Below are positions 5,330 through 37,692 of a DNA stretch of 38,767 bases, in pieces. The notes beneath the pieces were generated by a model. That model did no database searches. It worked only from the letters and a program-made list of their open reading frames with translations, and was not told where the DNA came from. Position 1 is the stretch's first letter. Each line of letters opens with the position of its first letter. Location of the stretch: positions 1 through 38,767 of the IMG/VR virus record IMGVR_UViG_3300017763_002481; one strand, 5' to 3'. Made by a program: the position numbers and the translations under genes. This DNA comes from a virus.

Positions 5330-6035
5330 AATGACTTTTACCGCACGTGAATTGATTGCAATGTCAGTTGCAGTTGATCGCTATGTTGGAGGTTATGTTA
5401 AAAGGCATGAGACTGATAGGGAACATCCTATTCGTCATATGACTAACTTTAGTTACTTAATGGGTCTTGCTAAGAAGCAACCTAATGCTAAAGATATTGA
5501 AGTCCTAGACGAAGACTACATAACTGCTGACCAAATCATTGAGTACTTTGAAGGCTTGATCTTCAAAGCAATGGAACGTAATCTTAGCGAATACGAAGAG
5601 AAGATTACTGAGATTATCCGAGCAGATAATTTGAATGTTAGAGGCGGAGATAATAGAATTCCTATTGTTCCTAGCCTGCCTAATGTGTTCCGTAACAACC
5701 AAAAGCATGATGTATGGGGCGATGAAGAACGTTCTTTGCGTAAGATATCTGACTATGTTGGTACTATTAAGACTCGTGGAGACTTTGTAGGTACTGTAAA
5801 GCACGTTAGAGAAATGCGTAGGACTAACAGTTTATTGGTTGCAATTCTCACAGAAGATAACAATATTATCAAGTTCTTCTATGATTTATTCCGCGATAAT
5901 ACTATCAAAGACACTCTAAAAGTAGGTAATACTGTTACATTTAGTGGTTATGTTAAGTCACATGACGTATCTAAGTTTAGCAAGTGTAAGGAGACCTTCT
6001 TAAATAGAGTCAGTATCGACAAAGAAGATAAATAG
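5319..6035 (+). CDS. Hypothetical protein (238 aa), possible OB-fold C-terminus
   Basis: Starts inside the end of the HAD gene with an AAGGA site 10 bases upstream; an ATG at 5331 is a weaker alternative. The N-terminal half is helical (ARELIAMSVAVDRYVGGYV; ADQIIEYFEGLIFKAMER). Residues about 150-235 alternate short strands (YVGTIKTRGDFVGTVKHV; SLLVAILTEDNNIIKFFY; GNTVTFSGYVKSH), a pattern like an OB fold, which often binds single-stranded nucleic acid. That is inference; no function is assigned. Confidence 0.65.
   Translation: MSDKMTFTARELIAMSVAVDRYVGGYVKRHETDREHPIRHMTNFSYLMGLAKKQPNAKDIEVLDEDYITADQIIEYFEGLIFKAMERNLSEYEEKITEIIRADNLNVRGGDNRIPIVPSLPNVFRNNQKHDVWGDEERSLRKISDYVGTIKTRGDFVGTVKHVREMRRTNSLLVAILTEDNNIIKFFYDLFRDNTIKDTLKVGNTVTFSGYVKSHDVSKFSKCKETFLNRVSIDKEDK
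6027..6034 (+). promoter_or_regulatory. Candidate T4-type late promoter (GATAAATA)
   Basis: GATAAATA matches the late octamer in 7 of 8 positions, with a predicted start at about 6040 and a ~63-base leader to the fibre-like gene at 6103. Late timing suits a structural gene. It overlaps the stop codon of the preceding gene. Confidence 0.5.
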
Positions 6036-6102
6036 TAATACAACTTAGAACTAGTCTTTAAGACTAGACAGTATTTAAATACTGAATCGGAGTATATTAC
6101 AT

Positions 6103-7554
6103 ATGGCAGTCTTTATGAATGCCAAAGGTACATCTAATACCGAATTTATGTTTGGTAAACGTGGTGGTAAAATCTTTGGTGGAACATCGACTCCAAGCGG
6201 TGCGGCAGTAGGTGACTTGTGGTTTGATAAGTCAAATAGTGCTCTTAAACTTGCTGGTGGGTCACCCGGATCAATTACATGGTCGAACTTAACCGTTCAA
6301 GGCGGTTCAATCAGTGCGGCTGATTTAGATGTATCAGGTAACTTAACTGTCAGTGGTACAACAACTACTCTTAACACTCAAACTCTTAACGTAGAAGATA
6401 ACATTATTGTATTAAACAGCGGCTTTACTGGTGCTGATAATATTGTTGATGCTGGGTTTGAAGTTGAAAGAGGAGATGAAACCAACGTAACATTCCTATG
6501 GGACGAGTCAGAAGGTGAATGGACATTAGGTGCTGAAGTACTTAATGCTGGTGCCTTTATTGGTAACTTAACAGGTGATGTAACAGGTAATGTACAACCG
6601 AACGGCGGACCTAATAGTGTAACTGCTAATACTTTAACTGCTAGTGCAACACTAAACGTTACAGGAGCAACTATAACAGGTCTTAGTACATCAAGTGTAA
6701 GCGAAGGTTCCAATCAGTATTACACAGACGAACGTGTAGATGACAGAGTAAATACTCTTATCCAAGGTGGTAATGGTATTACATCTACATACGATGATAG
6801 TGCTGGTACACTAACACTCAGCAGAGACGCAGACTTAGAAGTAAGTGATTTTGTTGATGCGGCCTATATGGCTACTGGTGAAACTTGGGCAGATGACGAT
6901 AGTACATTTGCTACAACGGCCGCTATTGCAGATAGAATTGATGTACAAATAGCCGCAAGTGATAGTGCTGTACACATTACAGGCAACGAAATTATTACAG
7001 GTAGCAAAACAATTAGTGGTGCTACACTAACTCTTACTGCAAACAGCACGTTAGACGTAAGCAACGCAACTGTAACAGGTGCTAACAGCGACAGCATTAG
7101 CGAAGGTTCAACTAACTTATACTATAGTAATCCTAGAGCTAGAGCGGCAATCACTGTAACAGATAACTCAACTGCTGGTGATGAACTTAGTTATAATAAT
7201 TCAACTGGTGTTATTAGTTGGGCAGGTGCTAGTTCAAGTACAACTAATGTAGAAAAAGTTACTGCATTATCGTTTGGGCAACTAACAGACTACGGTGCTA
7301 TATCAGGTAGTACAACACTTACAAGCGACTTTGGTAACGTAGCATCAGCGAACCTTACATACAGCGACACAGGGTTTATATTTAAAGACTCAGGCTTACC
7401 ACAACTACCTAGTTATCTAGTTTCAACATTACCTAGTGGTGTTAGTGCAGGTGACTTAGCACTATGTACAAACGAAAATGGTGGTGCAACTGTAGTATTC
7501 TTTGATGGTAGTAACTGGCGTAGAATGTCCGATAGGGCAGTAGCAAGTAGTTAA
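6103..7554 (+). CDS. Tail-fibre-like virion structural protein
   Basis: A 483-residue repetitive beta-rich protein. The N-terminal ~60 residues (FMFGKRGGKIFGGTSTP; GDLWFDKSNSALKLAGG) resemble virion-attachment heads of marine phage fibres. The middle carries DVSGNLTVSGTTTTLNTQTLNVEDN, typical of phage appendage proteins, and two copies of a repeat centred on YYTDERVDDRV and LYYSNPRARAAI. Threonine, serine and glycine dominate. It probably forms part of a trimeric fibre or baseplate appendage that contacts the host. No chaperone or peptidase domain is seen at the C-terminus. Its stop codon shares TTAA with the convergent oxygenase gene. Confidence 0.8.
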   Translation: MAVFMNAKGTSNTEFMFGKRGGKIFGGTSTPSGAAVGDLWFDKSNSALKLAGGSPGSITWSNLTVQGGSISAADLDVSGNLTVSGTTTTLNTQTLNVEDNIIVLNSGFTGADNIVDAGFEVERGDETNVTFLWDESEGEWTLGAEVLNAGAFIGNLTGDVTGNVQPNGGPNSVTANTLTASATLNVTGATITGLSTSSVSEGSNQYYTDERVDDRVNTLIQGGNGITSTYDDSAGTLTLSRDADLEVSDFVDAAYMATGETWADDDSTFATTAAIADRIDVQIAASDSAVHITGNEIITGSKTISGATLTLTANSTLDVSNATVTGANSDSISEGSTNLYYSNPRARAAITVTDNSTAGDELSYNNSTGVISWAGASSSTTNVEKVTALSFGQLTDYGAISGSTTLTSDFGNVASANLTYSDTGFIFKDSGLPQLPSYLVSTLPSGVSAGDLALCTNENGGATVVFFDGSNWRRMSDRAVASS

Positions 7555-8249
7555 ACCTTCCACCTCAACATTAAACTATTCCTAAAGTCTCCTTCAGCAA
7601 TATTTGTAGGTGCTTGATGCCATGTGCCATCAAAATTGGGTGCAATAAACATACAGTTTGGTCTAAATGGTAAGGTTCTAGCACATTTAAAATGCTCCTC
7701 ACAATCCTTTTTAACCATATGCGGTCCACTTGTACCAGGATCTTGTACTGTATGTTCTGCTAGACTGTCGCCTATGTATTCATATAGTTTGCTACCATAT
7801 GCTACTTGGCTCATATCTTTAGGCAAATATATTAAACAACTAAGTGTAAAGACTGTGTCTTTAAAAGCATCTGTGTGTATATCATCTATCAGTAATTCAC
7901 TAGAGTCTTTCCAAAATCTTGTAGTAGGTAATACTTCCTGTCCTTCAAACGATAAACCAAACTTATTAGCAACCACATGAAAGAACTTGTTTGCCATTTT
8001 ATTAAAGTATCTAATATCTGCTTGGGATTCATTATCCATATCTAAAGCATACTCTATTCTATTACTAACCTCTAACTCTATTGGATCTTGAATCAAGCCT
8101 TCAGCAGTATCAAACTCTGTAAACTTTCTATAGTCATTTGTTTTAAGTATCTCAGGTATAAACATATGGGGCCATGGGTCATTGAGAACTTCGCTGTTCT
8201 CAACTTGGTTTATCATATGATTAAATTGATTTGTAATATCCGTAAGCAT
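7551..8249 (-). CDS. 2-oxoglutarate/Fe(II)-dependent oxygenase-like
   Basis: Last gene of a minus-strand operon. The 232-residue protein keeps the iron-binding facial triad H125-x-D127 (DDIHTDAF) and H211 (GTWHQAP), with R223 or R229 placed to bind 2-oxoglutarate (FRNSLMLRW). The LIYLP strand and GSKLY turn between them match the other two oxygenases of the window. Family members hydroxylate protein side chains, nucleic acids or small molecules. The neighbouring fibre gene makes a virion protein a possible substrate, but that is inference. It overlaps the oxygenase upstream by 29 bases in another frame. Confidence 0.75.
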   Translation of the reverse strand: MLTDITNQFNHMINQVENSEVLNDPWPHMFIPEILKTNDYRKFTEFDTAEGLIQDPIELEVSNRIEYALDMDNESQADIRYFNKMANKFFHVVANKFGLSFEGQEVLPTTRFWKDSSELLIDDIHTDAFKDTVFTLSCLIYLPKDMSQVAYGSKLYEYIGDSLAEHTVQDPGTSGPHMVKKDCEEHFKCARTLPFRPNCMFIAPNFDGTWHQAPTNIAEGDFRNSLMLRWKV

Positions 8250-9012
8250 GTTTTCTTTCCATTTGTGTGTCTAGTATAGGACTGCTATGCCAAGCATGTA
8301 TAGAACGTGGCATAAAATATACCAGTCCGCTTGTAAAAGGTAATTGATCTATGAGGTTGCAGTCTTGTCTTATCAAACTCTTATCTAGGTCTGTTTCGTG
8401 TTCTTTAGGCTTCCAAAATTGTGTACCATAGTTTCTTAATGAATCGTCAGAGGGTAAGTATAATCCAAATGTTATATCAAAGTCTTTGTAATCTATGTGT
8501 ACATCATTGACACGGAACCTTTCTGTGTCTTTCCATAACCACATGCTAGTTTTGTATTCATGTTCTAAACTAAACTTGTCTGCTATAGCACAACGTACAT
8601 ACTCATTGTCAAACACTAACTCTAGTAGCATTTGATATGCAGGATCAAAGTTCATGTCCTGTTGTAGCCTACCTTGTACTTCAATATCGTACATGTCCTC
8701 TGGCCAATTATCTATTAGGTTATCAAGTAAGTCTGGGTGTATAAAGTTTTTAATTACTAACTTATGATTACTTACTTTAGCATCTCGTATGCCTTTGAGT
8801 GCATATAAAGTGTAAGAATGAAATTGTATTTCACCTATGCTTTCTACCATACCACCTTCAAGCAGTACTGGTAGCCTTGGATACCAAGGTTCCATATCCA
8901 TAGGTATATGTGTACAACTATTCATTTGTCCACATATCTTACATTTTATTCTGGGATAGTCTGGATCGTATTCCGTTGGGTGAAAGGGTATACCGTTACT
9001 GTCTCTGGCCAT
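8221..9012 (-). CDS. 2-oxoglutarate/Fe(II)-dependent oxygenase-like with N-terminal zinc motif
   Basis: The C-terminal half has the triad H172-x-D174 (NDVHIDYKD) and H242 (AWHSSP), with R253 as probable 2-oxoglutarate anchor and GLYLP and YGTQFW in between. The N-terminus adds CKICGQ...CTH (C24, C27, C33, H35), a likely zinc site that the other two copies lack. The 263-residue length leaves a helical linker of about 110 residues between the two parts. Abuts the gene upstream with no gap and overlaps the oxygenase downstream, so the two are translated together. Substrate unknown. Confidence 0.72.
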   Translation of the reverse strand: MARDSNGIPFHPTEYDPDYPRIKCKICGQMNSCTHIPMDMEPWYPRLPVLLEGGMVESIGEIQFHSYTLYALKGIRDAKVSNHKLVIKNFIHPDLLDNLIDNWPEDMYDIEVQGRLQQDMNFDPAYQMLLELVFDNEYVRCAIADKFSLEHEYKTSMWLWKDTERFRVNDVHIDYKDFDITFGLYLPSDDSLRNYGTQFWKPKEHETDLDKSLIRQDCNLIDQLPFTSGLVYFMPRSIHAWHSSPILDTQMERKHAYGYYKSI

Positions 9013-9321
9013 TTAAATTTCTACTGATGCTTCAAAACTAAATTGCATCTCATCAAATAAATCAAATAATTCTTCTGCAATTTCATCACCCTCTTCTGGG
9101 GTAATCTCTTCGTCTAAAACAATCTCGTAAATATATAAAGCACCTTGATCATCTTCATCTGTATAAGATATCACATCGATGCCTACTTTTTCTTTACCAT
9201 CGTCGTAAGCAATTAGCAGTTTGGTTGCAACTACTTCTTGTACTATATCAAAGTACTCGATTACATCATTGTCCTCGAGTTCTTCTCTAGTAACTATTCT
9301 TACGAAATGCTTTGTAAACAT
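9013..9321 (-). CDS. Hypothetical acidic protein (102 aa)
   Basis: Its stop directly abuts the start of the next minus-strand gene. Strongly acidic (DEEITPEEGDEIAEELFDLFDE) after a strand-rich first half (TKLLIAYDDGKEKVGIDVISY). No known motif. The acidic charge and small size resemble phage proteins that mimic DNA or bind basic partners, but nothing specific supports that here. A hairpin lies upstream in the gap to the membrane-protein gene. Confidence 0.6.
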   Translation of the reverse strand: MFTKHFVRIVTREELEDNDVIEYFDIVQEVVATKLLIAYDDGKEKVGIDVISYTDEDDQGALYIYEIVLDEEITPEEGDEIAEELFDLFDEMQFSFEASVEI

Positions 9322-9335
9322 ATTTGATCCATAAT

Positions 9336-9356
9336 GTAAGGGCTCTGGGCCCTTAC
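9336..9356. promoter_or_regulatory. Intergenic hairpin (8-bp stem)
   Basis: GTAAGGGC (9336-9343), 5-base loop, GCCCTTAC (9349-9356): a perfect 8-bp stem in the gap between two minus-strand genes. No good T-run follows on either strand, so it is not a standard terminator. It may be an mRNA processing or stability element within the operon, or a weak attenuator. Confidence 0.5.
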
Positions 9357-9379
9357 TTTAACTTATACTTATCCGGTTT

Positions 9380-9772
9380 TTACTGTTTGCCGAATGCTTT
9401 TCCGGCTTCTGCAATACCGAAACTACCTAAACAAACTACAACAAATGATGTGTAAATGGTATCGGAAATCTTTAAATCCATTCCCCAAAAACCTGTTACC
9501 AAGTCTACTATACCAAATGCTAACATCATTATAAAAGATGCAAAACCAATGATACTTTTCTCATTGATGTCGTTCTCATCTCTAAACAATGCACCAAAAG
9601 AAAACTTCTCTTTGGGCTTTGCGGCCGCTGTAGCAATCTGTAATTCTTTAGAAAGTGTTTCCATCTCTCTAATTTTGTCTTGAGCCTCATCTAGTTTCAA
9701 GACCATTTCCGTGTACTTTGCGACGTCAATTTCAACGTTACCTTGACTAATTTTTTTACTTTCTTCGCTCAT
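9380..9772 (-). CDS. Membrane protein with coiled coil and two transmembrane segments
   Basis: 130 residues, first gene of the minus-strand operon. Residues about 15-50 form a charged helix with coiled-coil spacing (EMVLKLDEAQDKIREMETLSKELQ). Two hydrophobic segments follow: roughly 74-95 (IGFASFIMMLAFGIVDLVTG) and 107-125 (IYTSFVVVCLGSFGIAEAG). Size and topology would fit a holin-like or inner-membrane regulator, but the charged N-terminal domain is larger than in classic holins and no family is recognised. The late-type promoter upstream fits late expression. Confidence 0.7.
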   Translation of the reverse strand: MSEESKKISQGNVEIDVAKYTEMVLKLDEAQDKIREMETLSKELQIATAAAKPKEKFSFGALFRDENDINEKSIIGFASFIMMLAFGIVDLVTGFWGMDLKISDTIYTSFVVVCLGSFGIAEAGKAFGKQ

Positions 9773-9807
9773 CGTTTCTCCTACAAAACTCTGTTACTGT
9801 GTATATG

Positions 9808-9815
9808 TATTTATC
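9808..9815 (-). promoter_or_regulatory. Candidate T4-type late promoter (GATAAATA on minus strand)
   Basis: The plus strand reads TATTTATC, so GATAAATA lies on the minus strand. The predicted start is about 9802, giving a ~30-base leader to the ATG whose first base is 9772, with a GGAG site before it. It sits back to back with the plus-strand sigma70-like promoter at 9818. Confidence 0.5.
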
Positions 9816-9817
9816 AC

Positions 9818-9846
9818 TTGACATGGCCTAAATAATAGTGTATAAT
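9818..9846 (+). promoter_or_regulatory. Consensus sigma70 promoter
   Basis: TTGACA (9818-9823), 17-base spacer, TATAAT (9841-9846): a full consensus match. Predicted start is about 9853, with AAGGAA (9875-9880) as ribosome site for the ATG at 9887. It drives the dsbA-like gene and probably gene 43. Confidence 0.9.
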
Positions 9847-9886
9847 TGCTTACAACGGTTAAATATACACACTTAAGGAAGAACAC

Positions 9887-10150
9887 ATGGCATTTAATAA
9901 AGTTTTTAACGAAGAAGAAAAATCAAGACTAAAGAAATTAGTACAAGAAGGTGATCAAGTATTATACGAACTTGATGCACTTAACGAAGGACTCAGAGAT
10001 ACTGTGAAAGCAATCGCAGAAGAAATGGACCTCAAACCTAGCATTTTAATGAAAGCAATTAAGGTTGCTCACAAGGCTAAGTTTACAGACGAAAGAGATA
10101 ACTTTGACGAACTAGAAACAATTCTAGAAACAGTTGGCAAGACTCTTTAA
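9887..10150 (+). CDS. dsbA: DsbA-like double-stranded DNA-binding protein (T4 late-transcription helper type)
   Basis: An 87-residue, mostly helical, charged protein (LKKLVQEGDQVLYELDALNEGLRDTVKAIAEEM; AIKVAHKAKFTDERDNFDELETILETVG). Size, helix pattern and the late KAxxxDERDxFxExE segment resemble T4 DsbA (89 aa), which binds double-stranded DNA near late promoters, and the version found beside replication genes in marine T4-like phages. Here it lies just upstream of gene 43 behind a consensus promoter. Homology is judged by eye; a different small DNA-binding protein is possible. Confidence 0.65.
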   Translation: MAFNKVFNEEEKSRLKKLVQEGDQVLYELDALNEGLRDTVKAIAEEMDLKPSILMKAIKVAHKAKFTDERDNFDELETILETVGKTL

Positions 10151-10172
10151 TTTTATAAGTATAATTGGTATT

Positions 10173-10198
10173 GCGTCAGCCTAAAGTGATGCTTGGAG
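10173..10198 (+). promoter_or_regulatory. Candidate autogenous translational operator of gene 43
   Basis: GCGTCA (10173-10178), loop of exactly 8 bases (GCCTAAAG), TGATGC (10187-10192) form a 6-bp stem with one G-U pair. The ribosome site GGAG (10195-10198) follows 2 bases later, 10 bases before the ATG of gene 43. T4 and RB69 polymerases repress their own mRNA by binding a hairpin with an 8-base loop in the same place. The loop sequence differs from T4, as expected if it co-evolved. Confidence 0.5.
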
Positions 10199-10208
10199 AT
10201 AGATATAC

Positions 10209-12896
10209 ATGAGTTACGTTGATGCGTTTCATGACACAGCGAAGGACAAGATCCTCGTATCTGAAAGAGTAGATGGTAAGAGACATATTGTCACTCTACA
10301 ACCTGAATATAATTTTTATTATGCTGACCCACGTGGTAAAGCAAGAAGTGTCTATGGCGATCCTGTAACTGAAGTACGTTGCAAATCTCTAAAGGACTTT
10401 AGAAAGAACGTAGCAATCAATAAGAAAAGCGGAAAGATGTTTGAAACTGACGTCCGTCCTATCAATAAAACACTAGAAAAGAATTATCTCAATGCAGAGA
10501 TACCTAAACTACATACAGCATTCTTTGACATCGAGGTAGACTTTGATCCTGTAAAAGGATTTAGTTCACCTGAAGATGCCTTTATGCCTATTACTGCAAT
10601 AGGTGTATACTTAGACTGGATGGATGCTATGGTATGTTTAGCAGTACCACCTAAAACATTAGACTGGCAACAAGCACAAAGCATTGCAAGTAAGATGCCA
10701 GAAGTAATGTTGTTCAAAGACGAAGCAGAAATGCTTAACACATTCCTCACACTAATAGATGATGCAGACATACTAAGTGGCTGGAACAGTGAAGGTTATG
10801 ATATACCTTATACTACTAATAGAATTATCAAGATACTAGGTAAAAGCGAAACAAGACGTTTGTGTTTGTTTGGACAGTTTCCTAAAGAACGTAAGTTTGA
10901 AATGTTCGGTAGCGAAAGACAGAGCTATGACCTCATTGGTAGAGTTCACTTAGACTATTTGCAACTGTATAGAAAATACAACTATGAGGAACGACATAGT
11001 TACAGACTAGACTTTATTGGTGAAATGGAACTAGGTGAGAAGAAGGTTGTGTACGAAGGTAGTTTAGATAGACTATACAATCATGACTTTGAACGTTTCT
11101 TAGAATACAACATTCAAGACGTATTGTTGATTGCTAAGATGGATAAAAAATTACAGTTCATTGACTTAGCGAATACTATTGCACATGACAATACTGTATT
11201 ACTTCCAACCACAATGGGTGCTGTAGCAACTACAGAACAAGCAATTATAAACGAAGCACACTTACGTGGCTTCTGTGTTCCAGACAGAGATAGACGTGAG
11301 AAACATAATACACAGGCCGCTGGTGCTTATGTGGCTTTCCCTAAGAAAGGTAAGCATGAATGGATAGGCAGTATGGACATAAACAGTCTATACCCAAGTG
11401 TGTTTAGAGCATTGAATATGGCTCCAGAGACTATTGTTGGACAACTTAGACCAGAGTTCACAGACGAAGAAATAGAAAACAAACAGAAGTTAGATAAACT
11501 ATCGTTTGCTGATTCATGGCTTGGTAAGTTTGGTAGCAATGAATATGAAATGGTAATGGCTAAAGATGTTGATACTGTTATGAAACTAGATATGGAGGAC
11601 GGTACTAGTGTAGATGTTACTGGTGCTGATGTATATAATTTAGTATTTCACAGTGGTCAACCTTGGAATATTAGTGCTAATGGTACTATCTTTAAAACAG
11701 ACGTACAAGGTATTGTGCCAGGACTATTAGAGAGATGGTATGCAGAACGACAAGTGTTGCAGGGTAAGAAGAAAGAAGCAACCACAGATGCTGAGAAGGC
11801 TTTCTATGATAAGCGACAGTTAGTTAAAAAGATCAACCTTAACAGTTTGTATGGTGCGATACTTAATCCAGGCTGTAGGTTCTTTGACAAACGTATAGGA
11901 CAGAGTACTACACTAACAGGTCGTGCTATTACAAAACACATGGGAGCAGAAACAAATAGAATGTTTACAGGAGACTATGATCATACCGGAGACACTATTG
12001 TCTATGGAGATACAGACTCTGTTTACTTTTCCGCTGTTCCGTCATTGCCGAATGATGTTATCCTAGATATGCAAAGTGCTATCACATTATATGATCACAT
12101 ATCAGATACAGTTAGTGATACATTCCCACAGTTTATGAAAGACAGTTTTAATGTTCCACTTAAGATTGGTGGTGTTATTAAAGCAGGTAGAGAAGTAGTT
12201 GGTAAGAGTGGACTGTTTATTACTAAGAAGAGATATGCTATCAAGTGTTTAGACATAGAAGGATATCAACCTGAAGGTGGTAAACTAAAGATTATGGGTA
12301 TGGACATCAAGCGAAGTGATACTCCTGAGTTTGTACAGGACTTCCTTGAAGAGATACTAGACTCTGCACTAGAAGGCATGCCAGAGAAAGATGTTATACA
12401 AATGATAAAAGACTTCAAAGCAGGATTTAAAGAACTAGAACCATGGAAGAAAGGTATGCCTAAAAGGGTAAACAACTTAACCATGTACACCAAAAAGTAT
12501 AGAAAGCAGACAAACATGCAGACTAATACAAACATATACAAATTGGAAAAACTAAAAGGCGAAAAAGAGAACAAAATGATTCCTGGGCATGTTAAGGCAA
12601 GTATAGTATGGAATGACCTTAAGTATGTAAACGGTGATCAATACAGTTTAAGCATTATGGATGGTGCAAAAGTTGTAGTATGCAGACTAAGAAATAATCC
12701 TATGGGTTATACAAGTGTTGCATATCCAACAGACGAACTAAAGATTCCACAATGGTTTAAAGAATTACCTTTTGATGAAGAAGGTATGGAACAAGCAGTT
12801 CTAGATAAGAAGATACAAAACGTGTTAGGCGTACTTGGATGGGACTTGTCTAGAGCAAATGATAGTGAGGTTATGGATAATTTCTTTGAATTTTAA
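10209..12896 (+). CDS. 43: Family-B DNA polymerase, T4 gp43 type
   Basis: 895 residues, the size of T4 gp43 (898). The 3'-5' exonuclease has FFDIEVDF (D107, E109) and later exonuclease segments SGWNSEGYDIPY and EYNIQDVLLI. Polymerase motif A is DINSLYPSV near residue 390, motif B includes KINLNSLYGA, and motif C is YGDTDS near 600. The protein copies and proofreads the phage genome. It ends EVMDNFFEF, where T4-family polymerases carry the peptide that docks in the sliding clamp. The start at 10209 has a good ribosome site and a hairpin like the T4 autogenous operator. Clamp gene follows after its own promoter. No intein or split is seen. Confidence 0.98.
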   Translation: MSYVDAFHDTAKDKILVSERVDGKRHIVTLQPEYNFYYADPRGKARSVYGDPVTEVRCKSLKDFRKNVAINKKSGKMFETDVRPINKTLEKNYLNAEIPKLHTAFFDIEVDFDPVKGFSSPEDAFMPITAIGVYLDWMDAMVCLAVPPKTLDWQQAQSIASKMPEVMLFKDEAEMLNTFLTLIDDADILSGWNSEGYDIPYTTNRIIKILGKSETRRLCLFGQFPKERKFEMFGSERQSYDLIGRVHLDYLQLYRKYNYEERHSYRLDFIGEMELGEKKVVYEGSLDRLYNHDFERFLEYNIQDVLLIAKMDKKLQFIDLANTIAHDNTVLLPTTMGAVATTEQAIINEAHLRGFCVPDRDRREKHNTQAAGAYVAFPKKGKHEWIGSMDINSLYPSVFRALNMAPETIVGQLRPEFTDEEIENKQKLDKLSFADSWLGKFGSNEYEMVMAKDVDTVMKLDMEDGTSVDVTGADVYNLVFHSGQPWNISANGTIFKTDVQGIVPGLLERWYAERQVLQGKKKEATTDAEKAFYDKRQLVKKINLNSLYGAILNPGCRFFDKRIGQSTTLTGRAITKHMGAETNRMFTGDYDHTGDTIVYGDTDSVYFSAVPSLPNDVILDMQSAITLYDHISDTVSDTFPQFMKDSFNVPLKIGGVIKAGREVVGKSGLFITKKRYAIKCLDIEGYQPEGGKLKIMGMDIKRSDTPEFVQDFLEEILDSALEGMPEKDVIQMIKDFKAGFKELEPWKKGMPKRVNNLTMYTKKYRKQTNMQTNTNIYKLEKLKGEKENKMIPGHVKASIVWNDLKYVNGDQYSLSIMDGAKVVVCRLRNNPMGYTSVAYPTDELKIPQWFKELPFDEEGMEQAVLDKKIQNVLGVLGWDLSRANDSEVMDNFFEF

Positions 12897-12920
12897 TCGA
12901 AAAAAAACATGAGAATTTAC

Positions 12921-12949
12921 TTGACTTTTCTAAATAAGTGTACTACAAT
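12921..12949 (+). promoter_or_regulatory. Sigma70-like promoter before the sliding clamp gene
   Basis: TTGACT (12921-12926), 17-base spacer, TACAAT (12944-12949). Predicted start about 12956; GGAGA (12969-12973) precedes the clamp ATG at 12979. It lets clamp and transglycosylase be transcribed apart from the polymerase. Confidence 0.75.
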
Positions 12950-12978
12950 ATACAGAATAATATTCTACGGAGAAATAA

Positions 12979-13734
12979 ATGGCGAACAATTATATTAAAG
13001 ATTACTTCAAAGATGTACTAAGACATACACATAGTCTTGGTGTATTTGAAATGGTAAAGATCAAAGGCACTACTGAACTTACAGAGTTAGAGACTGTTGA
13101 CGCAGATAAAACTGTAATTCTTAAAGGTGAGAGTGTAAACCCTGTACCCGACTTTGCAGAAGCAACTGTTGGACTAAGCAGAATGAGTGTGTTAGATGGA
13201 TACTTAAAGTTTCCTGGCTTTGACAGTGAAGATGCAACTGTTGAAATACAAACACAAAATAGAAACGAAGAGGATGTACCTGTAGAGGTTGCATTCAAAA
13301 GCACAGAAGGTACTGATGCTAATTATAGATTCATGTTAGCGGATGTAATCAACCAGCAACTTAAAGACATTAAGTTTAAAGGTGCTGAGTTTGATGTAAA
13401 CATTGTGCCTTCGCAAAAGAATCTAAAAGACTTAGGATACTTTAACAGCATATTAGGAACATTTGAGGGTAACTTCAGTCCTAAGACAGAAGGCGGAGCA
13501 TTGTATTTCCACATTGGAGATGGCGGTAGCGACAGAACTAAAGTACTAATCAACAACAATGTTGATGGTGAGATTACTAATGACTGGAGTTGGCCTTTAG
13601 ACATTGTGTTAAAGATTCTTAGACTAGGAGATAACAGTAACTTAGTAATGAGTATCAACAACCAAGGACTGCTACAAATTAAAGTAGACAGTGGCTTAGG
13701 TATTTACACATACTTACTTCCAGCAAGGAGATAG
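12979..13734 (+). CDS. 45: Sliding clamp, T4 gp45 type
   Basis: 251 residues, slightly longer than T4 gp45 (228). Sequence features fit the phage clamp: an N-terminal FKDVLRHTHSLGVFEMVKI segment, alternating strands, a central ADVINQQLKDIKFKGAEFDV block, and a C-terminal LSMxx-like strand run (LVMSINNQGLLQIKVDSGLGIYTYLLP) that closes the second domain. Three copies form the ring that holds the polymerase on DNA and, in T4, also activates late transcription. Located directly after gene 43 and before the DpdA-like gene, which carries a clamp-binding-like tail. The family call rests on pattern and position. Confidence 0.85.
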   Translation: MANNYIKDYFKDVLRHTHSLGVFEMVKIKGTTELTELETVDADKTVILKGESVNPVPDFAEATVGLSRMSVLDGYLKFPGFDSEDATVEIQTQNRNEEDVPVEVAFKSTEGTDANYRFMLADVINQQLKDIKFKGAEFDVNIVPSQKNLKDLGYFNSILGTFEGNFSPKTEGGALYFHIGDGGSDRTKVLINNNVDGEITNDWSWPLDIVLKILRLGDNSNLVMSINNQGLLQIKVDSGLGIYTYLLPARR

Positions 13735-13735
13735 C

Positions 13736-13894
13736 ATGAACGAATTAGCAGAAATTTTATGTAGAATGTCGCAAGAGCAATTACACGAGTTCGCCAGAGC
13801 ATGTATTGACAAAGGCATTGCTATACCATTAGAGTTTGCACTACACACAGAACAGTTAGATGCTGACGTTGATTTTATTAAAGAGAGTGCATAA
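13736..13894 (+). CDS. Small protein (52 aa) between clamp and transglycosylase genes
   Basis: Starts 1 base after the clamp stop, with AAGGAG just upstream, and its stop overlaps the next ATG (TAATG). The sequence is a helical, acidic peptide (MNELAEILCRMSQEQLHEFA; LDADVDFIKESA). Position implies co-translation with both clamp and DpdA. No family is recognised; it could be a partner or specificity subunit of either, which is only inference from location. Confidence 0.65.
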   Translation: MNELAEILCRMSQEQLHEFARACIDKGIAIPLEFALHTEQLDADVDFIKESA

Positions 13895-15456
13895 TGGATT
13901 TAGGTAAAAGACAGTTAGACTATGCTGTATATTTGCCAGCCATTAGTAGTTTCTATGTAAAGCAAGTAGATAAGATTCTAAACAAAGACCCTGCTAATAG
14001 TAGAACGCCTGCAGGATTTGAATATGGCAACGAAGGCTTAGACTTTTTAAAAGCAAAAGACACATACTTCCATTATCCATATGGACTATACTCAGCCGGT
14101 CATGCTCACTTAGACATTGCTAAAAGTCACAAAGATGAGCCAATGATACAGGACAGAGATAGAAACGAATGTAAAGTAATACTAGGAGACTCAGGTGGTT
14201 TCCAGATTGCTACAGGCGTAATGAAAATGGATTGGGACAATGCAAAAGATCCTAACGATCCTGCTCGTACAAAGATGTGTGAGAAAATATTACGTTGGTT
14301 AGAACACACAGCAGACTGGAGTATGACATTAGACATTCCAGCCTTTGCCGCAGTTGAGCCACTAAGCAGTAAAACAGGACTAACAGAATTTAAAGACACA
14401 TTAGATATTAGTTTGCTTAACTTACATTACTTCACAAGCAATCGTGTACCAGGAGCAACTAAGTTCTTAAATGTATTAAGTGGTACTGACGAAGCAACAA
14501 GTAAAGAATGGTACGAAGCAGTTAAAAGTTTCAGTGATAAAAACTTTGTTGCACAGGCTTATGGTGATGAGAATAGAACACTAGAAGGATATGCATTCGC
14601 TGGTATCAACATGAAAGACATGAGTTGTGTACTAAACAGGATGCTAGACTTACGTGAAGATGGTTTACTTGAAGGCAAGGATTGGATACACTTCCTTGGT
14701 ACAGGTAAACTACAATGGGCATGTTTCTTAACAGCAATACAAAGACAGTTAAGAATACATGATAACCCTAACATCACATTAAGTTTTGATGCCGCTAGTC
14801 CATTTGTGAATACAGCATACGGACAAACTTATGCACACAATTTCTTTGAGCCAGGTAAGTTTGGTTACTTCATGGACAGAGCATTTGATCAACAAGAACT
14901 TGTTGGTAGTGATTTGCCTGCTCCGTTTGGACACAGTCCTGTAATGAGTAGACTCACAATGGGTGACCTATGTACTATGGGTCCAGGTGCACAAGACAAG
15001 AATGGTAACTTCAAGTTTAGTGAAGGACAACCACTTACAGACAAGCATGGTGAGCCTAAACTAGATGAACAAGGCAATCAACTATATGCAGAACGTGATA
15101 GCACTACATGGGACACACAAACATATCTTTACTATATGGGTCATAGTGTATTCAATCACATTGATGCAGTACAAGAAGCAAATAGACTTGCTGATGTAGA
15201 AGCATTTAGAGAAACATTAGATTATAAGAACTGGAGAAAGCCTACTAAGAAAAGCAGTAAGGCACAAGAAGTATCTCCATATGTTCCTGCTAATATTTTA
15301 TACTTCCAAAAGTTTGCAGAGGATTTATTTGATCCTAGCAATCCAGATCCAAGAGGTATGATAGCAGACCATAGAGAGTTCTTAACACATATAGGTTTCG
15401 CTGGAGAAGATGATGGCGATAACGAAGAAGTAATGGATACATTTTTTGAGTTTTAA
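13894..15456 (+). CDS. dpdA: DpdA-like guanine transglycosylase (TGT superfamily) with clamp-binding-like tail
   Basis: 520 residues, much longer than bacterial tRNA-guanine transglycosylase (~375). TGT hallmarks are present: the DSGGFQ substrate-binding motif (D99-Q104), the MTLDIPA segment near 144-150, and a SFDAASP segment near 297-303 where the catalytic aspartate lies. The TGT C-terminal zinc motif is not obvious. DpdA enzymes exchange guanine for a 7-deazaguanine base in DNA and occur with FolE/QueD/QueE, as here. The last nine residues, EVMDTFFEF, match the polymerase end EVMDNFFEF in all but one position, using different codons. This implies recruitment to the sliding clamp. A tRNA target is the main alternative. 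Confidence 0.85.
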   Translation: MDLGKRQLDYAVYLPAISSFYVKQVDKILNKDPANSRTPAGFEYGNEGLDFLKAKDTYFHYPYGLYSAGHAHLDIAKSHKDEPMIQDRDRNECKVILGDSGGFQIATGVMKMDWDNAKDPNDPARTKMCEKILRWLEHTADWSMTLDIPAFAAVEPLSSKTGLTEFKDTLDISLLNLHYFTSNRVPGATKFLNVLSGTDEATSKEWYEAVKSFSDKNFVAQAYGDENRTLEGYAFAGINMKDMSCVLNRMLDLREDGLLEGKDWIHFLGTGKLQWACFLTAIQRQLRIHDNPNITLSFDAASPFVNTAYGQTYAHNFFEPGKFGYFMDRAFDQQELVGSDLPAPFGHSPVMSRLTMGDLCTMGPGAQDKNGNFKFSEGQPLTDKHGEPKLDEQGNQLYAERDSTTWDTQTYLYYMGHSVFNHIDAVQEANRLADVEAFRETLDYKNWRKPTKKSSKAQEVSPYVPANILYFQKFAEDLFDPSNPDPRGMIADHREFLTHIGFAGEDDGDNEEVMDTFFEF

Positions 15457-20597: not shown

Positions 20598-21062
20598 ATG
20601 AGTATAGAACGATTGGTAGTAACAGAAGCAGATCTTAAGAACATGCTACATAGCATTGTTAGAGATATGCACACAGAAAACTACAAACCAGAAGTAATAA
20701 TAGGTCCTAACAGAGGCGGATTACAAATAGGTGTAATGTTAAGTCATTATTTTGATGTACCATTTGTACCATTACAGTGGCAAACACGTGATGGTGACAA
20801 AACAGATCATGCAAATCTTATTGCATTTGTAAACGATTACAGAGAGAAGAACATATTGCTAATAGATGATATCAATGATACTGGTAAAACATTAAACAGC
20901 ATAACTGAAACCATATATCAAGACTTTGTTTTTGATCTTAAGGTTGCTGTATTGTTTAATAAAACTACATCAACATTTGAGACTGTTGACTATTCAGCAG
21001 AAGAACTAACTCCGGACTACAATCCTTGGATAGTATTCCCTTATGAGGAGTGGTGGAAATAA
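20598..21062 (+). CDS. Purine-type phosphoribosyltransferase
   Basis: 154 residues with the PRPP-binding signature NILLIDDINDTGKTL (DD at 90-91, TGKT at 95-98) and GPNRGGLQIG near 36. Members join purine bases (hypoxanthine, xanthine, guanine) to PRPP. Size and motif spacing fit xanthine/hypoxanthine or guanine types. It heads the unit that contains folE, so it may feed guanine nucleotides to GTP cyclohydrolase or salvage guanine released by the transglycosylase; both are inference. No ribosome site precedes it, and the promoter predicts a leaderless mRNA. Confidence 0.85.
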   Translation: MSIERLVVTEADLKNMLHSIVRDMHTENYKPEVIIGPNRGGLQIGVMLSHYFDVPFVPLQWQTRDGDKTDHANLIAFVNDYREKNILLIDDINDTGKTLNSITETIYQDFVFDLKVAVLFNKTTSTFETVDYSAEELTPDYNPWIVFPYEEWWK

Positions 21063-21325: not shown

Positions 21326-21485
21326 GGAAAGACATAGAGAACTCGACAAGAAAGTTGCCGAGGACTACGAGCATTATCTAAATGATGATCAGTTAAATGC
21401 TGAAAAGTTAGAGAAACTCAAATTAAAGCATGAGATAGCAGATTTAATAGAACAAATAAAAGATAAGGAACAAGAAGAGAAATGA
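21282..21485 (+). CDS. DUF465/YdcH-like coiled-coil protein (67 aa)
   Basis: The sequence LKVLEERHRELDKKVAEDYEH...EKLEKLKLKHEIADLIEQIK follows the DUF465 (YdcH/SlyX-like) pattern: two helices with an HRELD signature and a K-L-K-x-x-I-A end. Members are small bacterial coiled-coil proteins of unknown function. Ribosome site AGGAGA at 21270. Overlaps both neighbours, ATGA with folE. Probably of host origin. Confidence 0.7.
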   Translation: MSTSKSLRNHLKVLEERHRELDKKVAEDYEHYLNDDQLNAEKLEKLKLKHEIADLIEQIKDKEQEEK

Positions 21486-22171
21486 GTACAAGTAATAAGA
21501 TCAAGGATAGATTAGTTGCCGCTGGTAAAAGATTTTGGGCAGGAGATAATATCTCTGACTACATAGAAGAAGGTGAGAAGCAACAACTAATAGACGAACT
21601 TTCAATTAAGTTTGAAGATGTCTTGCAAGGTCTTGTTATTGATACTGAGAACGATCCTAACAGTAACGGCACAGGCAAACGTCTTGCTAAGATGTATATC
21701 AATGAACTAATGGCAGGTAGGTATGAATCTATACCAGTTGCAACTGCTTTCCCTAATGACAGCGAAGATAGATATGAAGGCATGTTGGTTGTGCGTAGCG
21801 AACTAACAAGTATGTGTTCACACCATCATCAGATAGTTAGAGGTGTTGCATACATTGGTATTATTGCTAGTGATAAACTAATTGGCCTAAGCAAGTACAC
21901 AAGGATTGCACAATGGTGTGCAATGAGAGGTACACTACAAGAAGAACTTGCTAACGATATAGTTAGAGAAATACAGAAAGCCACAGGTGCAGAGCATTTG
22001 GGTGTGTATGTACAAGCAACACACGGTTGCGTAGAGAATAGAGGTGTTAAGGCACATAGTAGTCTTACACAAACAACTGTATTAAAGGGTGCATTCAAAG
22101 ATGACCCAGGTACAAAGAAAGAGTTTATGGATAACATAAAGTTACAACAATCATATGCGGGTGACAAGTAA
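21482..22171 (+). CDS. folE: GTP cyclohydrolase I (FolE)
   Basis: 229 residues, near the family norm (~222). Zinc ligands are present: C112 and H115 in TSMCSHHHQ and C183 in HGCVENRG. The GLSKYTRIAQWCAMRGTLQEELANDI helix and the final HSSLTQTTVLKG strand are typical. It converts GTP to 7,8-dihydroneopterin triphosphate, first step of both folate and 7-deazaguanine (preQ0) synthesis. With QueE 0.5 kb downstream and a QueD-like gene at 17.7 kb, the 7-deazaguanine route is the likely use. ATGA overlap with the gene before. Confidence 0.95.
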   Translation: MSTSNKIKDRLVAAGKRFWAGDNISDYIEEGEKQQLIDELSIKFEDVLQGLVIDTENDPNSNGTGKRLAKMYINELMAGRYESIPVATAFPNDSEDRYEGMLVVRSELTSMCSHHHQIVRGVAYIGIIASDKLIGLSKYTRIAQWCAMRGTLQEELANDIVREIQKATGAEHLGVYVQATHGCVENRGVKAHSSLTQTTVLKGAFKDDPGTKKEFMDNIKLQQSYAGDK

Positions 22172-22699
22172 GTGATATTAAAAAGAAACAAAGCATGGGT
22201 ATTACAAAAAGGATTAGTTCCTATTGATGCTGTATGCGATATGGTTGCAATGGGTAAGGATCTGCAAGATATCTTGCGTAGATTTTCTATACTTAACAAC
22301 AACGATATATTCGAATGTATAGAATTTTATGCACAAAATACTATTGTTCCTGACCATGATCCAGAGTCTTTAATATCATTGGTAAATACTGATCCAGAAG
22401 AAATTATTATTGAGGTAACAAATATAAATCAAACTGTATACTTGAAGTTAGTTGAACTGGGTAAAAGATATCACCCTGAGCAACAAGACTTTCATGTGTG
22501 TATGAATTTAGGTTTAAAGGTTGTATGTTTACATAACGTACAAAAGATTGAAAGTAACGCAAGTGAAATGCAAGATAGGCTACATAAAGCAGTACATCAA
22601 GCAATTCATAGATCAGTCCCAGAAGTATATGAGGACTTAGATAGAACAAAAGAAGATCTCGATTACGACGACTTCATTAAAAGAGAAAAGAATATATGA
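22172..22699 (+). CDS. Unknown protein (175 aa) between folE and queE
   Basis: Begins with GTG directly after the folE stop and ends in an ATGA overlap with queE, so it is translated with both. It is mostly helical, with RRFSILNNNDIFECIEFYAQN, a EEIIIEVTNINQTVYLKLVELGKRYHPEQQDFHVCMNLGLKVVC block and a helical charged end. No conserved catalytic set for QueD or QueC is visible. Its position makes a role in the same pathway possible, though unproven. Confidence 0.65.
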   Translation: MILKRNKAWVLQKGLVPIDAVCDMVAMGKDLQDILRRFSILNNNDIFECIEFYAQNTIVPDHDPESLISLVNTDPEEIIIEVTNINQTVYLKLVELGKRYHPEQQDFHVCMNLGLKVVCLHNVQKIESNASEMQDRLHKAVHQAIHRSVPEVYEDLDRTKEDLDYDDFIKREKNI

Positions 22700-23580
22700 A
22701 ACTAAGGTATAGTGAAGCATTTTATTCAGTGCAAGGAGAAGGTAGGTTTGTTGGCGTACCAAGTATTTTCCTTAGAACTTTCGGATGTAATTTCGAATGT
22801 GCAGGTTTTGGTCAGCCCAAAGGCAACTTGATTCCTGTAACTGAAATGCCATATAATACCGATCCTTTAGCGGATAAAGAACATCCTAATGCTTATAAGA
22901 GCATTGAAGAACTTCCAGTCACTCCAGTAGGATGTGATTCTAGTGCTAGTTGGAGCAAGAAGTATAAACACTTACAGATGACTAAATCTGTTGATGAGGT
23001 GATTGATCACATCACTAGTTTACTTCCCAACAGCACATTCACCGGCCAACACGGTGAAGACATACACCTGGTGATCACAGGTGGTGAACCGCTACTAGGG
23101 TGGCAACGTGTTTGGCCGACTCTCTTAGACGAGTGTGTGAAACGTGGGTTAAAGAATGTAACATTCGAAACTAACGGAACACAACTTGTTAAGAGCGATC
23201 TTATATCGTACTTTAACCTAACACAACCTAACCTACATGTAACTTGGAGTACAAGTCCTAAGTTATCTATCAGTGGTGAGACTACTGAAGATGCATGTAA
23301 GCCAGACGCATTGGCTACTATGAACCATGTAGATAATAGTTTCTTATACACAAAGTTTGTTGTACGTGATGCAGAAGACTTTGATGAAGTTGATATGTTT
23401 GTACAAAATTATAAAGATAACGACATAGAACTTGACAGCATATTCTGTATGCCCGAAGGTGCTACATTAGAACAACAATCACTAACAGAAAAAGAAGTTG
23501 CAGAAACATGTATGCAAACAGGATATAAGTTTAGTCCTAGATTGCATATTAGTTTGTTTGGTAACGCATGGGGTACATAA
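22696..23580 (+). CDS. queE: 7-carboxy-7-deazaguanine synthase (QueE), radical SAM
   Basis: QueE hallmarks: YSVQGEGRFVGVPSIFLRTFGCNFEC at the N-terminus and TGGEP (129-132) for SAM binding. The radical-SAM cysteines are C31 and C35 as usual, but the third is delayed: position 38 is F and C80 (GCDSSASW) is the likely third ligand, giving Cx3Cx44C. At 294 residues it is longer than bacterial QueE (~220), mainly from this insertion. The enzyme contracts 6-carboxytetrahydropterin to 7-carboxy-7-deazaguanine (CDG) using a [4Fe-4S] cluster. I recall similar split clusters in other marine phage QueE proteins. Confidence 0.9.
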   Translation: MKLRYSEAFYSVQGEGRFVGVPSIFLRTFGCNFECAGFGQPKGNLIPVTEMPYNTDPLADKEHPNAYKSIEELPVTPVGCDSSASWSKKYKHLQMTKSVDEVIDHITSLLPNSTFTGQHGEDIHLVITGGEPLLGWQRVWPTLLDECVKRGLKNVTFETNGTQLVKSDLISYFNLTQPNLHVTWSTSPKLSISGETTEDACKPDALATMNHVDNSFLYTKFVVRDAEDFDEVDMFVQNYKDNDIELDSIFCMPEGATLEQQSLTEKEVAETCMQTGYKFSPRLHISLFGNAWGT

Positions 23581-35685: not shown

Positions 35686-35777
35686 TGATTACTGATCTAG
35701 TGTTTATATCTATTTACTTTGGTTATCTAGGATTACTCAGCATTGGTACTAGTATTATTATTTGGGAAATGTTATAA
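35685..35777 (+). CDS. Tiny membrane peptide (30 aa)
   Basis: TAATG overlap with the gene before. The whole peptide is hydrophobic (DLVFISIYFGYLGLLSIGTS and beyond), one transmembrane segment. Small size and coupling make it plausible, but the region could also be a spacer. Confidence 0.4.
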   Translation: MITDLVFISIYFGYLGLLSIGTSIIIWEML

Positions 35778-35779
35778 AG

Positions 35780-36349
35780 ATGAGCTTCTTGTCTTCTTAC
35801 TTTAATGCTATTAGAAATTCACAGTTTTTTGTGTCTAATAAAGTATTGTATTGTGCAATACCTAAAAACAATACAAAGTATTGGATGAGCATATTTCAAC
35901 ACAGAGCTAATTCAGATGGTGACGTTAGTGTCCTACCAGATACTGATTATAGTTTTACTGTAGTAAGAGACCCACACGATAGACTTATTAGTGCTATGAA
36001 AACGTTTTGTAAACGAACACGAAGCCACCTAGATTGGACGGAAGAACAAAATTTAGAATGGATGATGGATGAGTGGGAAGATATAGCAAAGGACAAAGAC
36101 ATACTTAAAGATGAACAATTTATCACACACTTTATGCCTCAACATCTGTTCATAGAAGCATACGACTTTGATGATATAATCCCTTTTACAAATCAAGTGC
36201 AACTACTAGCAAAGTTAGGCAAGTACGGCATTGAGACAAGGATGGGATTAGTTCAACAACCATTACCAACATCATGTGATGCTAGAATAAAAAGTATTGT
36301 ACAAGAATATTATTCACAAGATTTAGAACTGTGGGAGTCAATAGCATAA
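35780..36349 (+). CDS. Sulfotransferase-like protein (first of three)
   Basis: Start at 35780 (MSFLSSYF) is preferred over a TTG at 35762. The PAPS-binding 5' loop is YCAIPKNNTKYW near residue 25 and the 3'-phosphate motif is FTVVRDPHDRLISA near 60, the two hallmarks of the sulfotransferase 2 group. Members move sulfate from PAPS to sugars. The 189 residues are short for the family. Two related genes follow at 37.7 and 38.3 kb. Confidence 0.72.
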   Translation: MSFLSSYFNAIRNSQFFVSNKVLYCAIPKNNTKYWMSIFQHRANSDGDVSVLPDTDYSFTVVRDPHDRLISAMKTFCKRTRSHLDWTEEQNLEWMMDEWEDIAKDKDILKDEQFITHFMPQHLFIEAYDFDDIIPFTNQVQLLAKLGKYGIETRMGLVQQPLPTSCDARIKSIVQEYYSQDLELWESIA

Positions 36350-36768: not shown

Positions 36769-37692
36769 ATGAAGATCTTTATTACAGGTGCAGACGGTTT
36801 CATTGGAAGCCACTTAGTAAAACAACTAGCCGAGCATGAGTTACATTTCCTACAACATGACCTCCGACAACATGAACTGGTAGCCAATCAATTGAAGGCT
36901 ATAAACCCTCAGGTTATCGTACACTTAGCGGCAAGGACAGAAGTAGAACAAAGTTTTTACGAACAAACAACGTTTAGTGACATCAACTATGTAGGAACAG
37001 TAAACCTCATAGAAAGTGCTAAACAATGTACTAATTTAGAAAACTTTGTGTTTGCAAGTACCATGGAAGTATACGGGTGGCAACCAATATCAGATCTCAT
37101 CAAAGATAGAAACGAAACAGAAGAAGACATATGGGCATTTGATGAAGAAACAATACCTAACCCTAATGCTCCTTATTCAGTAGCCAAGTATGCATGTGAA
37201 AAGTATTTAGAGTATGCAAACAGAAGTTATGGCTTTCCTTATACTATTATACGTCAAACTAATTCATATGGTAGAAAGGACAACGATTTCTTTGTTACTG
37301 AACGAGCAATAACCCAGATGCTGGGAAACACTTCAGATATCTACATGGGATATGCTGAACCATACAGAAACTTTATCTATGTAGATGATTTAGTTGACGC
37401 ATGGTGTACTGTTATCACACAACCTGATGCAGTTAAGAATCAACTGTTTTGTTTAGGACCACCTAATGCTGTAAAGATTAGACATTGGTTAAGGACTATT
37501 GCAGACAAAATAGGTTGGGGTGGAGAGATACATTGGAACACTAGACCACCTAGACCTGGTGAAATATATCTGTTAAACAGCAAACATGATAAACTCACAG
37601 CCGCTACAGGATGGGAGCCTAAGGTAGATATGGACACAGGATTAGACCGAACCATAGCACATTGGCGAGATAATCTTGATAGTAAGTCATAA
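36769..37692 (+). CDS. NAD-dependent sugar epimerase/dehydratase (WcaG family)
   Basis: The ATG at 36769 directly begins MKIFITGADGFIGSHL, the Rossmann NAD-binding motif, so longer starts are rejected. Other marks: HLAARTEVEQSF, FASTMEVYG, YSVAKYACEKYLEYA (YxxxK), and RNFIYVDDLVDAW. The 307 residues fit the UDP- or GDP-sugar epimerase/dehydratase group. It may make a sugar nucleotide for capsule, virion or DNA glycosylation. A structured RNA lies upstream and may control it. Confidence 0.88.
   Translation: MKIFITGADGFIGSHLVKQLAEHELHFLQHDLRQHELVANQLKAINPQVIVHLAARTEVEQSFYEQTTFSDINYVGTVNLIESAKQCTNLENFVFASTMEVYGWQPISDLIKDRNETEEDIWAFDEETIPNPNAPYSVAKYACEKYLEYANRSYGFPYTIIRQTNSYGRKDNDFFVTERAITQMLGNTSDIYMGYAEPYRNFIYVDDLVDAWCTVITQPDAVKNQLFCLGPPNAVKIRHWLRTIADKIGWGGEIHWNTRPPRPGEIYLLNSKHDKLTAATGWEPKVDMDTGLDRTIAHWRDNLDSKS

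Follow-up and report, generated by a model that had tools for sequence, protein, structure and literature searches.

In bacteriophage T4, the C-termini of gp43, gp55 and gp33 are interchangeable hydrophobic-acidic epitopes that bind the sliding clamp gp45, and gp55, as a ligand of gp45, tracks along DNA (PMC2988020). Ligands of PCNA carry the PIP motif Qxx[I/L]xxFF and those of the beta clamp the consensus QL(S/D)LF (PMC9690074), the latter occurring, for example, in transposases (PMC4549789, PMC9690074). DNA-modifying enzymes recruited by a clamp are already known as a kind: DNMT1 is recruited to PCNA by a PCNA-binding motif (PMC9690074), and, T4 alpha-glucosyltransferase (alpha-GT) binds gp45 (Sommer 2004, cited therein), yet the dominance of alpha-glucosylation is set mostly by expression and not by the gp45 interaction (PMC13216743). 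Phage DpdA (9g, CAjan) and DpdA2 (nt-1) are TGT-type enzymes encoded with 7-deazaguanine genes, and the DpdAs of 9g and CAjan act on DNA (PMC6884629). The modified G in DNA amounts to ~32%, as dPreQ0, in CAjan, ~28% in Rosebush, ~1.7% in Dp-1 and ~0.1% in nt-1. In E. coli, plasmids are modified by 9g DpdA even though the replisome of the phage is absent (PMC6884629).

In this study, a DpdA-like transglycosylase gene was analysed in a viral genome fragment of 38,767 nt (IMG/VR record IMGVR_UViG_3300017763_002481, positions 1 to 38,767), which as a whole is called the window. Similar to the T4 epitopes, a hydrophobic-acidic C-terminal peptide on a flexible linker is common to otherwise unrelated proteins of one phage, here the transglycosylase and the DNA polymerase, and a PCNA-type clamp gene adjoins. 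Different from T4, the putative client is a base-exchange enzyme, the motif reads FFEF/LFDF instead of LDFLF, and in most relatives of the window family it lies ~30 residues from the protein end. This internal place is not unusual, since the T4 gp55 epitope also precedes the end by a few residues (SLDFLYEAND at the C-terminus). The window enzyme resembles T4 alpha-GT as a presumed phage DNA-modifying enzyme paired, by putative binding, with a phage clamp, and resembles DNMT1 as one that a clamp peptide would direct to replicated DNA; however, alpha-GT has no such C-terminal motif and adds glucose to hmC without base exchange, and DNMT1 is a eukaryotic methyltransferase of hemimethylated CpG. 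With the phage DpdAs it shares the TGT-type fold, as predicted, and in part the accompanying 7-deazaguanine genes. The 9g-type dpdA likewise adjoins clamp and polymerase genes and encodes a C-terminal LF motif, but its clamp is of another class, neither DpdA1 nor DpdA2 has detectable similarity to the window family, and the motif is missing from the DpdA2 of nt-1, itself a phage of the T4 type (Straboviridae).

A predicted TGT-fold enzyme encoded beside the polymerase and clamp genes

The genes and peptides of the replication locus are listed below.

10209 to 12896, + strand: family-B DNA polymerase, T4 gp43-like (Pfam DNA_pol_B, E 1e-33; phrog_262, E 1.5e-194)
12867 to 12893, + strand: putative C-terminal clamp peptide of the polymerase, EVMDNFFEF, analogous in position and character to the T4 gp43 end KASLDFLFG
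12979 to 13734, + strand: PCNA/gp45-type sliding clamp by its structure model, 251 aa
13894 to 15456, + strand: predicted TGT-fold (DpdA-like) transglycosylase, 520 aa, with the motifs D99-S-G-G-F-Q104 and F298-D299-A-A-S-P
15403 to 15426, + strand: predicted disordered linker of the transglycosylase, residues 504-511
15427 to 15453, + strand: putative clamp-binding peptide EVMDTFFEF of the transglycosylase, residues 512-520, with a short helix predicted at 513-517

An AF2 model of the transglycosylase, built with 31 relatives, reached a pLDDT of 88. Foldseek searches with this model returned TGTs at all of ranks 1-17 (best E 8e-6), and VIA matched it to the T. maritima TGT 2ash with a Z of 20.4 and an rmsd of 4.4 over 304 residues. 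Residues D99, S100, G101, G102, Q104 and D299 are invariant among the 31 relatives, and both motifs, DSGGFQ and FDAASP, hardly vary within the family. The Asp of DSGGFQ is presumably the general base and the second Asp the nucleophile, as judged by motif and by analogy with TGTs. As judged from the model, the window protein has the TGT-type (beta/alpha) barrel fold of the TGT/DpdA superfamily, in agreement with the original prediction of a DpdA-like transglycosylase, though no sequence profile matches it: searches in Pfam, PHROG, NCBIfam and PADLOC gave no match, and a profile search against the PDB returned nothing for this protein or for the clamp, TGT and PCNA being recognised by fold alone. 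A P0007-based scan of viral contigs gave no match. By sequence or profile similarity, the family fell outside NF041059, PADLOC DpdA, DpdA1 and DpdA2, with hhalign probabilities of 0.2% to 9g DpdA1 and 0.9% to nt-1 DpdA2. The comparisons and the model suggest that the protein works like a clamp-recruited DpdA, rather than belonging to DpdA1 or DpdA2.

The gene that separates the polymerase from the transglycosylase had no match in Pfam or NCBIfam and matched, among PHROG families, solely an 'unknown' one. The monomer model of its product (pLDDT 91) shows a two-domain clamp fold, with a Foldseek match to PCNA at E 3e-11 and a VIA Z of 17.7 over 227 residues. Because the model of this intervening gene matches PCNA, the claim that a clamp gene lies between the other two holds.

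The polymerase and the transglycosylase share a C-terminal peptide

The polymerase ends in EVMDNFFEF and the transglycosylase in EVMDTFFEF, positioned as originally predicted and differing at one place. Over all pairs among the 80 window ORFs, a C-terminal match of 8/9 has a chance expectation of ~3e-6, and chance was rejected as the source of the shared tail; the runner-up pair matches at 5/9. Residues 504-520 of the transglycosylase all have a pLDDT below 50 in the AF2 model, corresponding to the flexible linker of a T4-type epitope, and the hydrophobic-acidic peptide at their end is shared with the tail of the phage's own polymerase. Among window-clade transglycosylases, the pairwise identity is 92% for the last 4 residues vs. 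45% for the 10 residues preceding the 9-mer, indicating that the tail is under selection while the linker drifts. Among the real genes of the window, no further clamp client with the same tail was found besides the polymerase and the DpdA-like protein.

The motif is widespread among relatives

Relatives of the window transglycosylase, 64 from viral contigs and then 80 by profile search, were compared together with their polymerases and clamps. In the window clade the motif is at the extreme C-terminus, and in other relatives it lies inside an acidic tail. MAFFT, unprompted, aligned the internal motif with FFEF (TFGSLFETE, NSFGSFFEQE, EFNNLFSVE), ~25 acidic residues following it. Such internal motifs also resemble the tail of the accompanying polymerase, as TTFGSLFETE vs. 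a polymerase ending in NTFHSLFDFDD in L021, and NEFNNLFSVE vs. one ending in TNTFNSLFSFD in L053. A tree computed from 77 core domains shows the motif in its internal position as the widespread form, the acidic end having been lost in the window clade. A survey of phage DpdA proteins for the same tail, which the original prediction had proposed, found sister clades without the terminal tail, yet with the motif internal in the last 55 residues; the idea that these clades lack the tail, which would have counted as a refutation under the original prediction's own criterion (related proteins without the tail in identical gene neighbourhoods), was therefore rejected.

A weight matrix made from polymerase tails only, with a threshold of at least 9.7 bits, recognised 61% of 79 distinct DpdA-like tails, compared with 0.55% of the ends of 1274 other ORFs, and 52/79 DpdA-like tails scored above their own shuffled tails (p < 0.05). 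Run on all ORF tails in the relatives, the matrix gave scattered matches only. The motif state of transglycosylase and own polymerase was FF/FF in 38 cases and LF/LF in 25, with several I/V/M variants, two discordant pairs and four without motif; under stricter labelling, 5/77 relatives (L040, L041, L043, L044, L116) are without motif or have MW instead. Both polymerase FF/LF switches inferred on the tree are mirrored in the transglycosylase; these joint switches represent no more than one or two independent events, too few for a sign test on independent pairs to reach significance.

In L040, L043, L044 and L116, LF/FF is replaced by MW(G/H), and their polymerases retain LFDF or LFGF; this may reflect a loss or a variant mode of binding.

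Cultured phages of the window family

In Pseudomonas phage Paride, the DpdA-like protein carries an internal NSFNSLFDVDA vs. a polymerase ending in HFDSLFGW. In Vibrio phage 2.275.O, the transglycosylase, only ~35% identical and over part of its length, ends in NNNDLFGW vs. NNTDLFDW in the polymerase, and xLFxW ends occur in its whole genome in the polymerase, DpdA and one 74-aa protein, with no others. Downstream of its dpdA come a gene resembling preQ0 reductase, one for queuosine biosynthesis (QueC) and then FolE. The DpdA of Phosso ends in VEGLF, a weak though compatible match, and the gene lies at a distance from those of polymerase and clamp.

The 74-aa protein of 2.275.O, NVP2275O_204 (L260:1713-1937), has a zinc-finger-like CxxC...H...C, ends in LMLSSLFEW and is a candidate third clamp client. 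In Paride (L066, OR805295), the relative of the window transglycosylase is unannotated (11995-13617), and an annotated homing endonuclease gene interrupts the polymerase gene (5605-10831). Pseudomonas jumbo phages of the PA5oct/Paride type also encode a QueE-like and two QueD-like proteins; no mention of DNA modification was found in the papers searched for it.

A second DpdA family encoded beside a beta-type clamp

Polymerase, beta-type clamp and dpdA genes are consecutive in Enterobacteria phage 9g. In profile searches, the family of the 9g clamp was matched to the beta clamps of bacteria (PDB, E 7e-7) and to the processivity factor phrog_947, and a clamp gene lies within 1.2 kb of the 9g-type dpdA in 74/79 loci. 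A (Q)xLF-type motif, terminal or a few residues from the end, was present in 76/77 intact 9g-type DpdAs. The terminal residues are LF in 66, LY in 3 and FF in 1 of them, and the remaining ones but one have LFD, LFDE, LFT or QDLF/QDLY near the end, the exception being that of mycobacteriophage Hedgerow. Among other ORFs of these loci, such endings occur in ~1/798 (two of the three matches were DpdA itself). Compared with the beta-clamp pentapeptide QLxLF, the terminal L-F of 66/77 and its near variants agree, and Q1 and L2 match in part: some proteins end in QxxLF (QPELF, QPGLF, QMELF, QRRLF), but most have xQELF, with Q shifted by one relative to the bacterial consensus. Beta-clamp binding by these proteins is putative.

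The motif is absent from the DpdAs of the actinophages Typha, CRB2, Nicole72, Finch and Hedgerow, in which no clamp gene was seen beside dpdA. When tails were set beside the reported modification levels (the Seuratvirus tail being taken from SLUR25 in place of CAjan), Dp-1 has RQRRLF, and nt-1 and Hedgerow, a Rosebushvirus related to Rosebush, have none. Modification levels do not simply follow tail presence, and because Rosebush is heavily modified and the Hedgerow DpdA is without tail, heavy modification does not depend on the tail in all lineages.

In 9g-type loci, e.g. L142-L151, the final dpdA codons CAG GAG (for QE) resemble a Shine-Dalgarno sequence for the gene that overlaps downstream, which suggests that translation is coupled in the direction of the clamp gene.

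Genes for preQ0 synthesis

Of the pathway to preQ0 (FolE, QueD, QueE, QueC), FolE and a putative QueE were found in the window, itself a genome fragment, ~6-8 kb downstream of the transglycosylase gene.

21482 to 22171, + strand: FolE, GTP cyclohydrolase I, the first step to preQ0 (PF01227, E 4e-37; NCBIfam FolE, E 1e-40)
22696 to 23580, + strand: divergent QueE-like 7-carboxy-7-deazaguanine synthase (TIGR04349, E 2e-11; TIGR03365, E 4e-11; both below the curated cut-offs)

QueD was present in 7/18 related records, all from relatives with large sequences, whereas Vibrio phage 2.275.O alone had a strong QueC match.

Proposed clamp recruitment and its alternatives

Base exchange in DNA by a DpdA-like protein that is recruited to the clamp through EVMDTFFEF is probably the correct, and the best, reading of this locus. 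It builds on the modelled folds, the motif with its conservation and its tracking of the polymerase tail, the order of the genes and the 9g-type parallel, and would add to them clamp binding, DNA as the substrate and coupling to replication. As a short linear motif at the end of a flexible linker, EVMDTFFEF would dock in the peptide pocket of the phage's own PCNA/gp45-type clamp, the same pocket that the polymerase tail would use. The clamp would tether the TGT-fold enzyme to DNA carrying loaded clamps, where it could swap guanines for a 7-deazaguanine provided by the phage FolE and QueE together with other phage or host enzymes. As far as sequence comparison goes, the predicted recruitment via the tail appears well supported by the family-wide motif, the polymerase tracking, the cultured phages and the second DpdA family. 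The original prediction, which also had the enzyme act right behind the fork, is partly supported. Against the reading stand the 5/77 relatives without motif or with MW, the few independent joint switches, nt-1 DpdA2 without motif, the tailless Hedgerow DpdA beside the heavy modification of Rosebush, and the activity of 9g DpdA on plasmids. That last activity and the expression-set dominance of T4 alpha-GT limit the strength that such tethering may have, and since plasmid modification proceeds without the phage replisome, phage-clamp recruitment is not needed for catalysis.

Other origins of the tail were considered. It had been claimed that the two tails use different codons for most residues, and that selection on the protein rather than recent copying keeps them alike. 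Codons differ for E, V, F and E, that is, 4/8 shared residues, but the other four have the same codon in both genes, one being Met, which has no codon choice. With 21/27 nt identical in the 27-nt tails vs. 7/33 in the 33 nt preceding, the codons alone are insufficient against a recent gene conversion, without functional meaning, that carried the 3' end of the polymerase gene over to dpdA. Selection on the protein is instead upheld by conservation over relatives: those at 76-87% identity have different motif-conforming tails (e.g. EVINEFFEF in DpdA and ETMQQFFEF in the polymerase), and the motif, internal in outgroups, is older than the window clade, a distribution by which copying was rejected as scarcely credible. 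For the 9g family, the terminal motif might be a DNA-level feature, its QE codons serving as the Shine-Dalgarno sequence of the overlapping downstream gene, since they are CAG in 34/42 and GAG in 41/54 cases and the next ATG mostly overlaps the stop or follows directly. This constraint was rejected as the cause of the motif, as it explains the QE codons but not LF, and is very improbable: the conserved L and F are outside the site, LF is kept in four cases without an ATG within 25 nt, and internal motifs of the window family are left without account. The Leu uses six codons about evenly (CTC/TTA/CTA/CTG/CTT/TTG = 14/12/11/11/10/8) and the Phe both, so that the selection on LF is at the protein level. 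Hydrophobic C-termini can act as protease signals, and the tail might accordingly be a degron, an oligomerisation element or the site of another partner that resembles the polymerase tail by hydrophobic-acidic convergence. This is improbable, although less so than the Shine-Dalgarno origin; the internal place of the motif in most relatives is incompatible with a C-terminal degron, and the motif follows the form of the polymerase's own and is ~100 times rarer in other ORFs.

Two further alternatives concern the substrate and the timing. The window enzyme might modify tRNA like an ordinary TGT, its tail having another purpose, as its fold matches are tRNA-modifying TGTs and no report of DNA modification by the window family was found in the literature. 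The fold matches point to tRNA TGTs chiefly because the solved structures of the fold are TGTs, and an enzyme for tRNA would have little use for a motif that binds the replication clamp or for a gene next to those of polymerase and clamp. The DpdAs of the parallel cases, 9g and CAjan, act on DNA (PMC6884629), making the tRNA substrate unlikely. A stronger contender, though still short of an even chance, is that the tail binds the clamp for tracking along clamp-loaded DNA or for local concentration, with modification being post-replicative and free of strict fork coupling. The tracking of gp55 as a gp45 ligand in T4 (PMC2988020), the T4 alpha-GT case (PMC13216743) and the plasmid modification by 9g DpdA without phage replication all favour it. 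Against it, the polymerase-clamp-dpdA order in two unrelated lineages suggests co-expression with the replisome, which is compatible with tracking too.

Clamp-recruited base exchange, if correct, offers such an enzyme a route to phage DNA, and perhaps a means of modifying new DNA and not host DNA. It also gives one explanation, drawn from sequence, of why two lineages have their polymerase, clamp and dpdA genes in this order, and it predicts DNA modification for a large unannotated family that includes 'hypothetical proteins' of the PA5oct-/Paride-type Pseudomonas jumbo phages. The surprise lies in the recurrence of this arrangement in two lineages whose clamps are of different types; the literature searched, which covered few subscription journals, had no instance of a DNA base-exchange enzyme with a clamp peptide. 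The chances are about even that base exchange coupled to replication is a general, convergent design, in which a DNA transglycosylase is tethered to the phage's own clamp by a peptide suited to the clamp type, with PCNA-type clamps taking Psi-x-x-[FL]-F and beta-type clamps (Q)xxLF, in at least two TGT-fold lineages without detectable sequence similarity, and in which DpdAs relying on the host clamp do without the peptide.

Other genes of the window

Upstream of FolE, 20598-21062 encodes a purine-type phosphoribosyltransferase-like protein (PF00156, E 2e-14) that might perform a base-salvage step, and the ORF between FolE and the QueE-like gene (22172-22699) has a weak DUF433 match and is a possible pathway accessory. 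Towards the end of the window, the successive ORFs 35762-36349, 37676-38305 and 38295-38765 contain, as judged by eye, the sulfotransferase-like motifs VRDPHDRLISAM, VERHPYTKMISAFYY and IRNPHQRLLSGIL.
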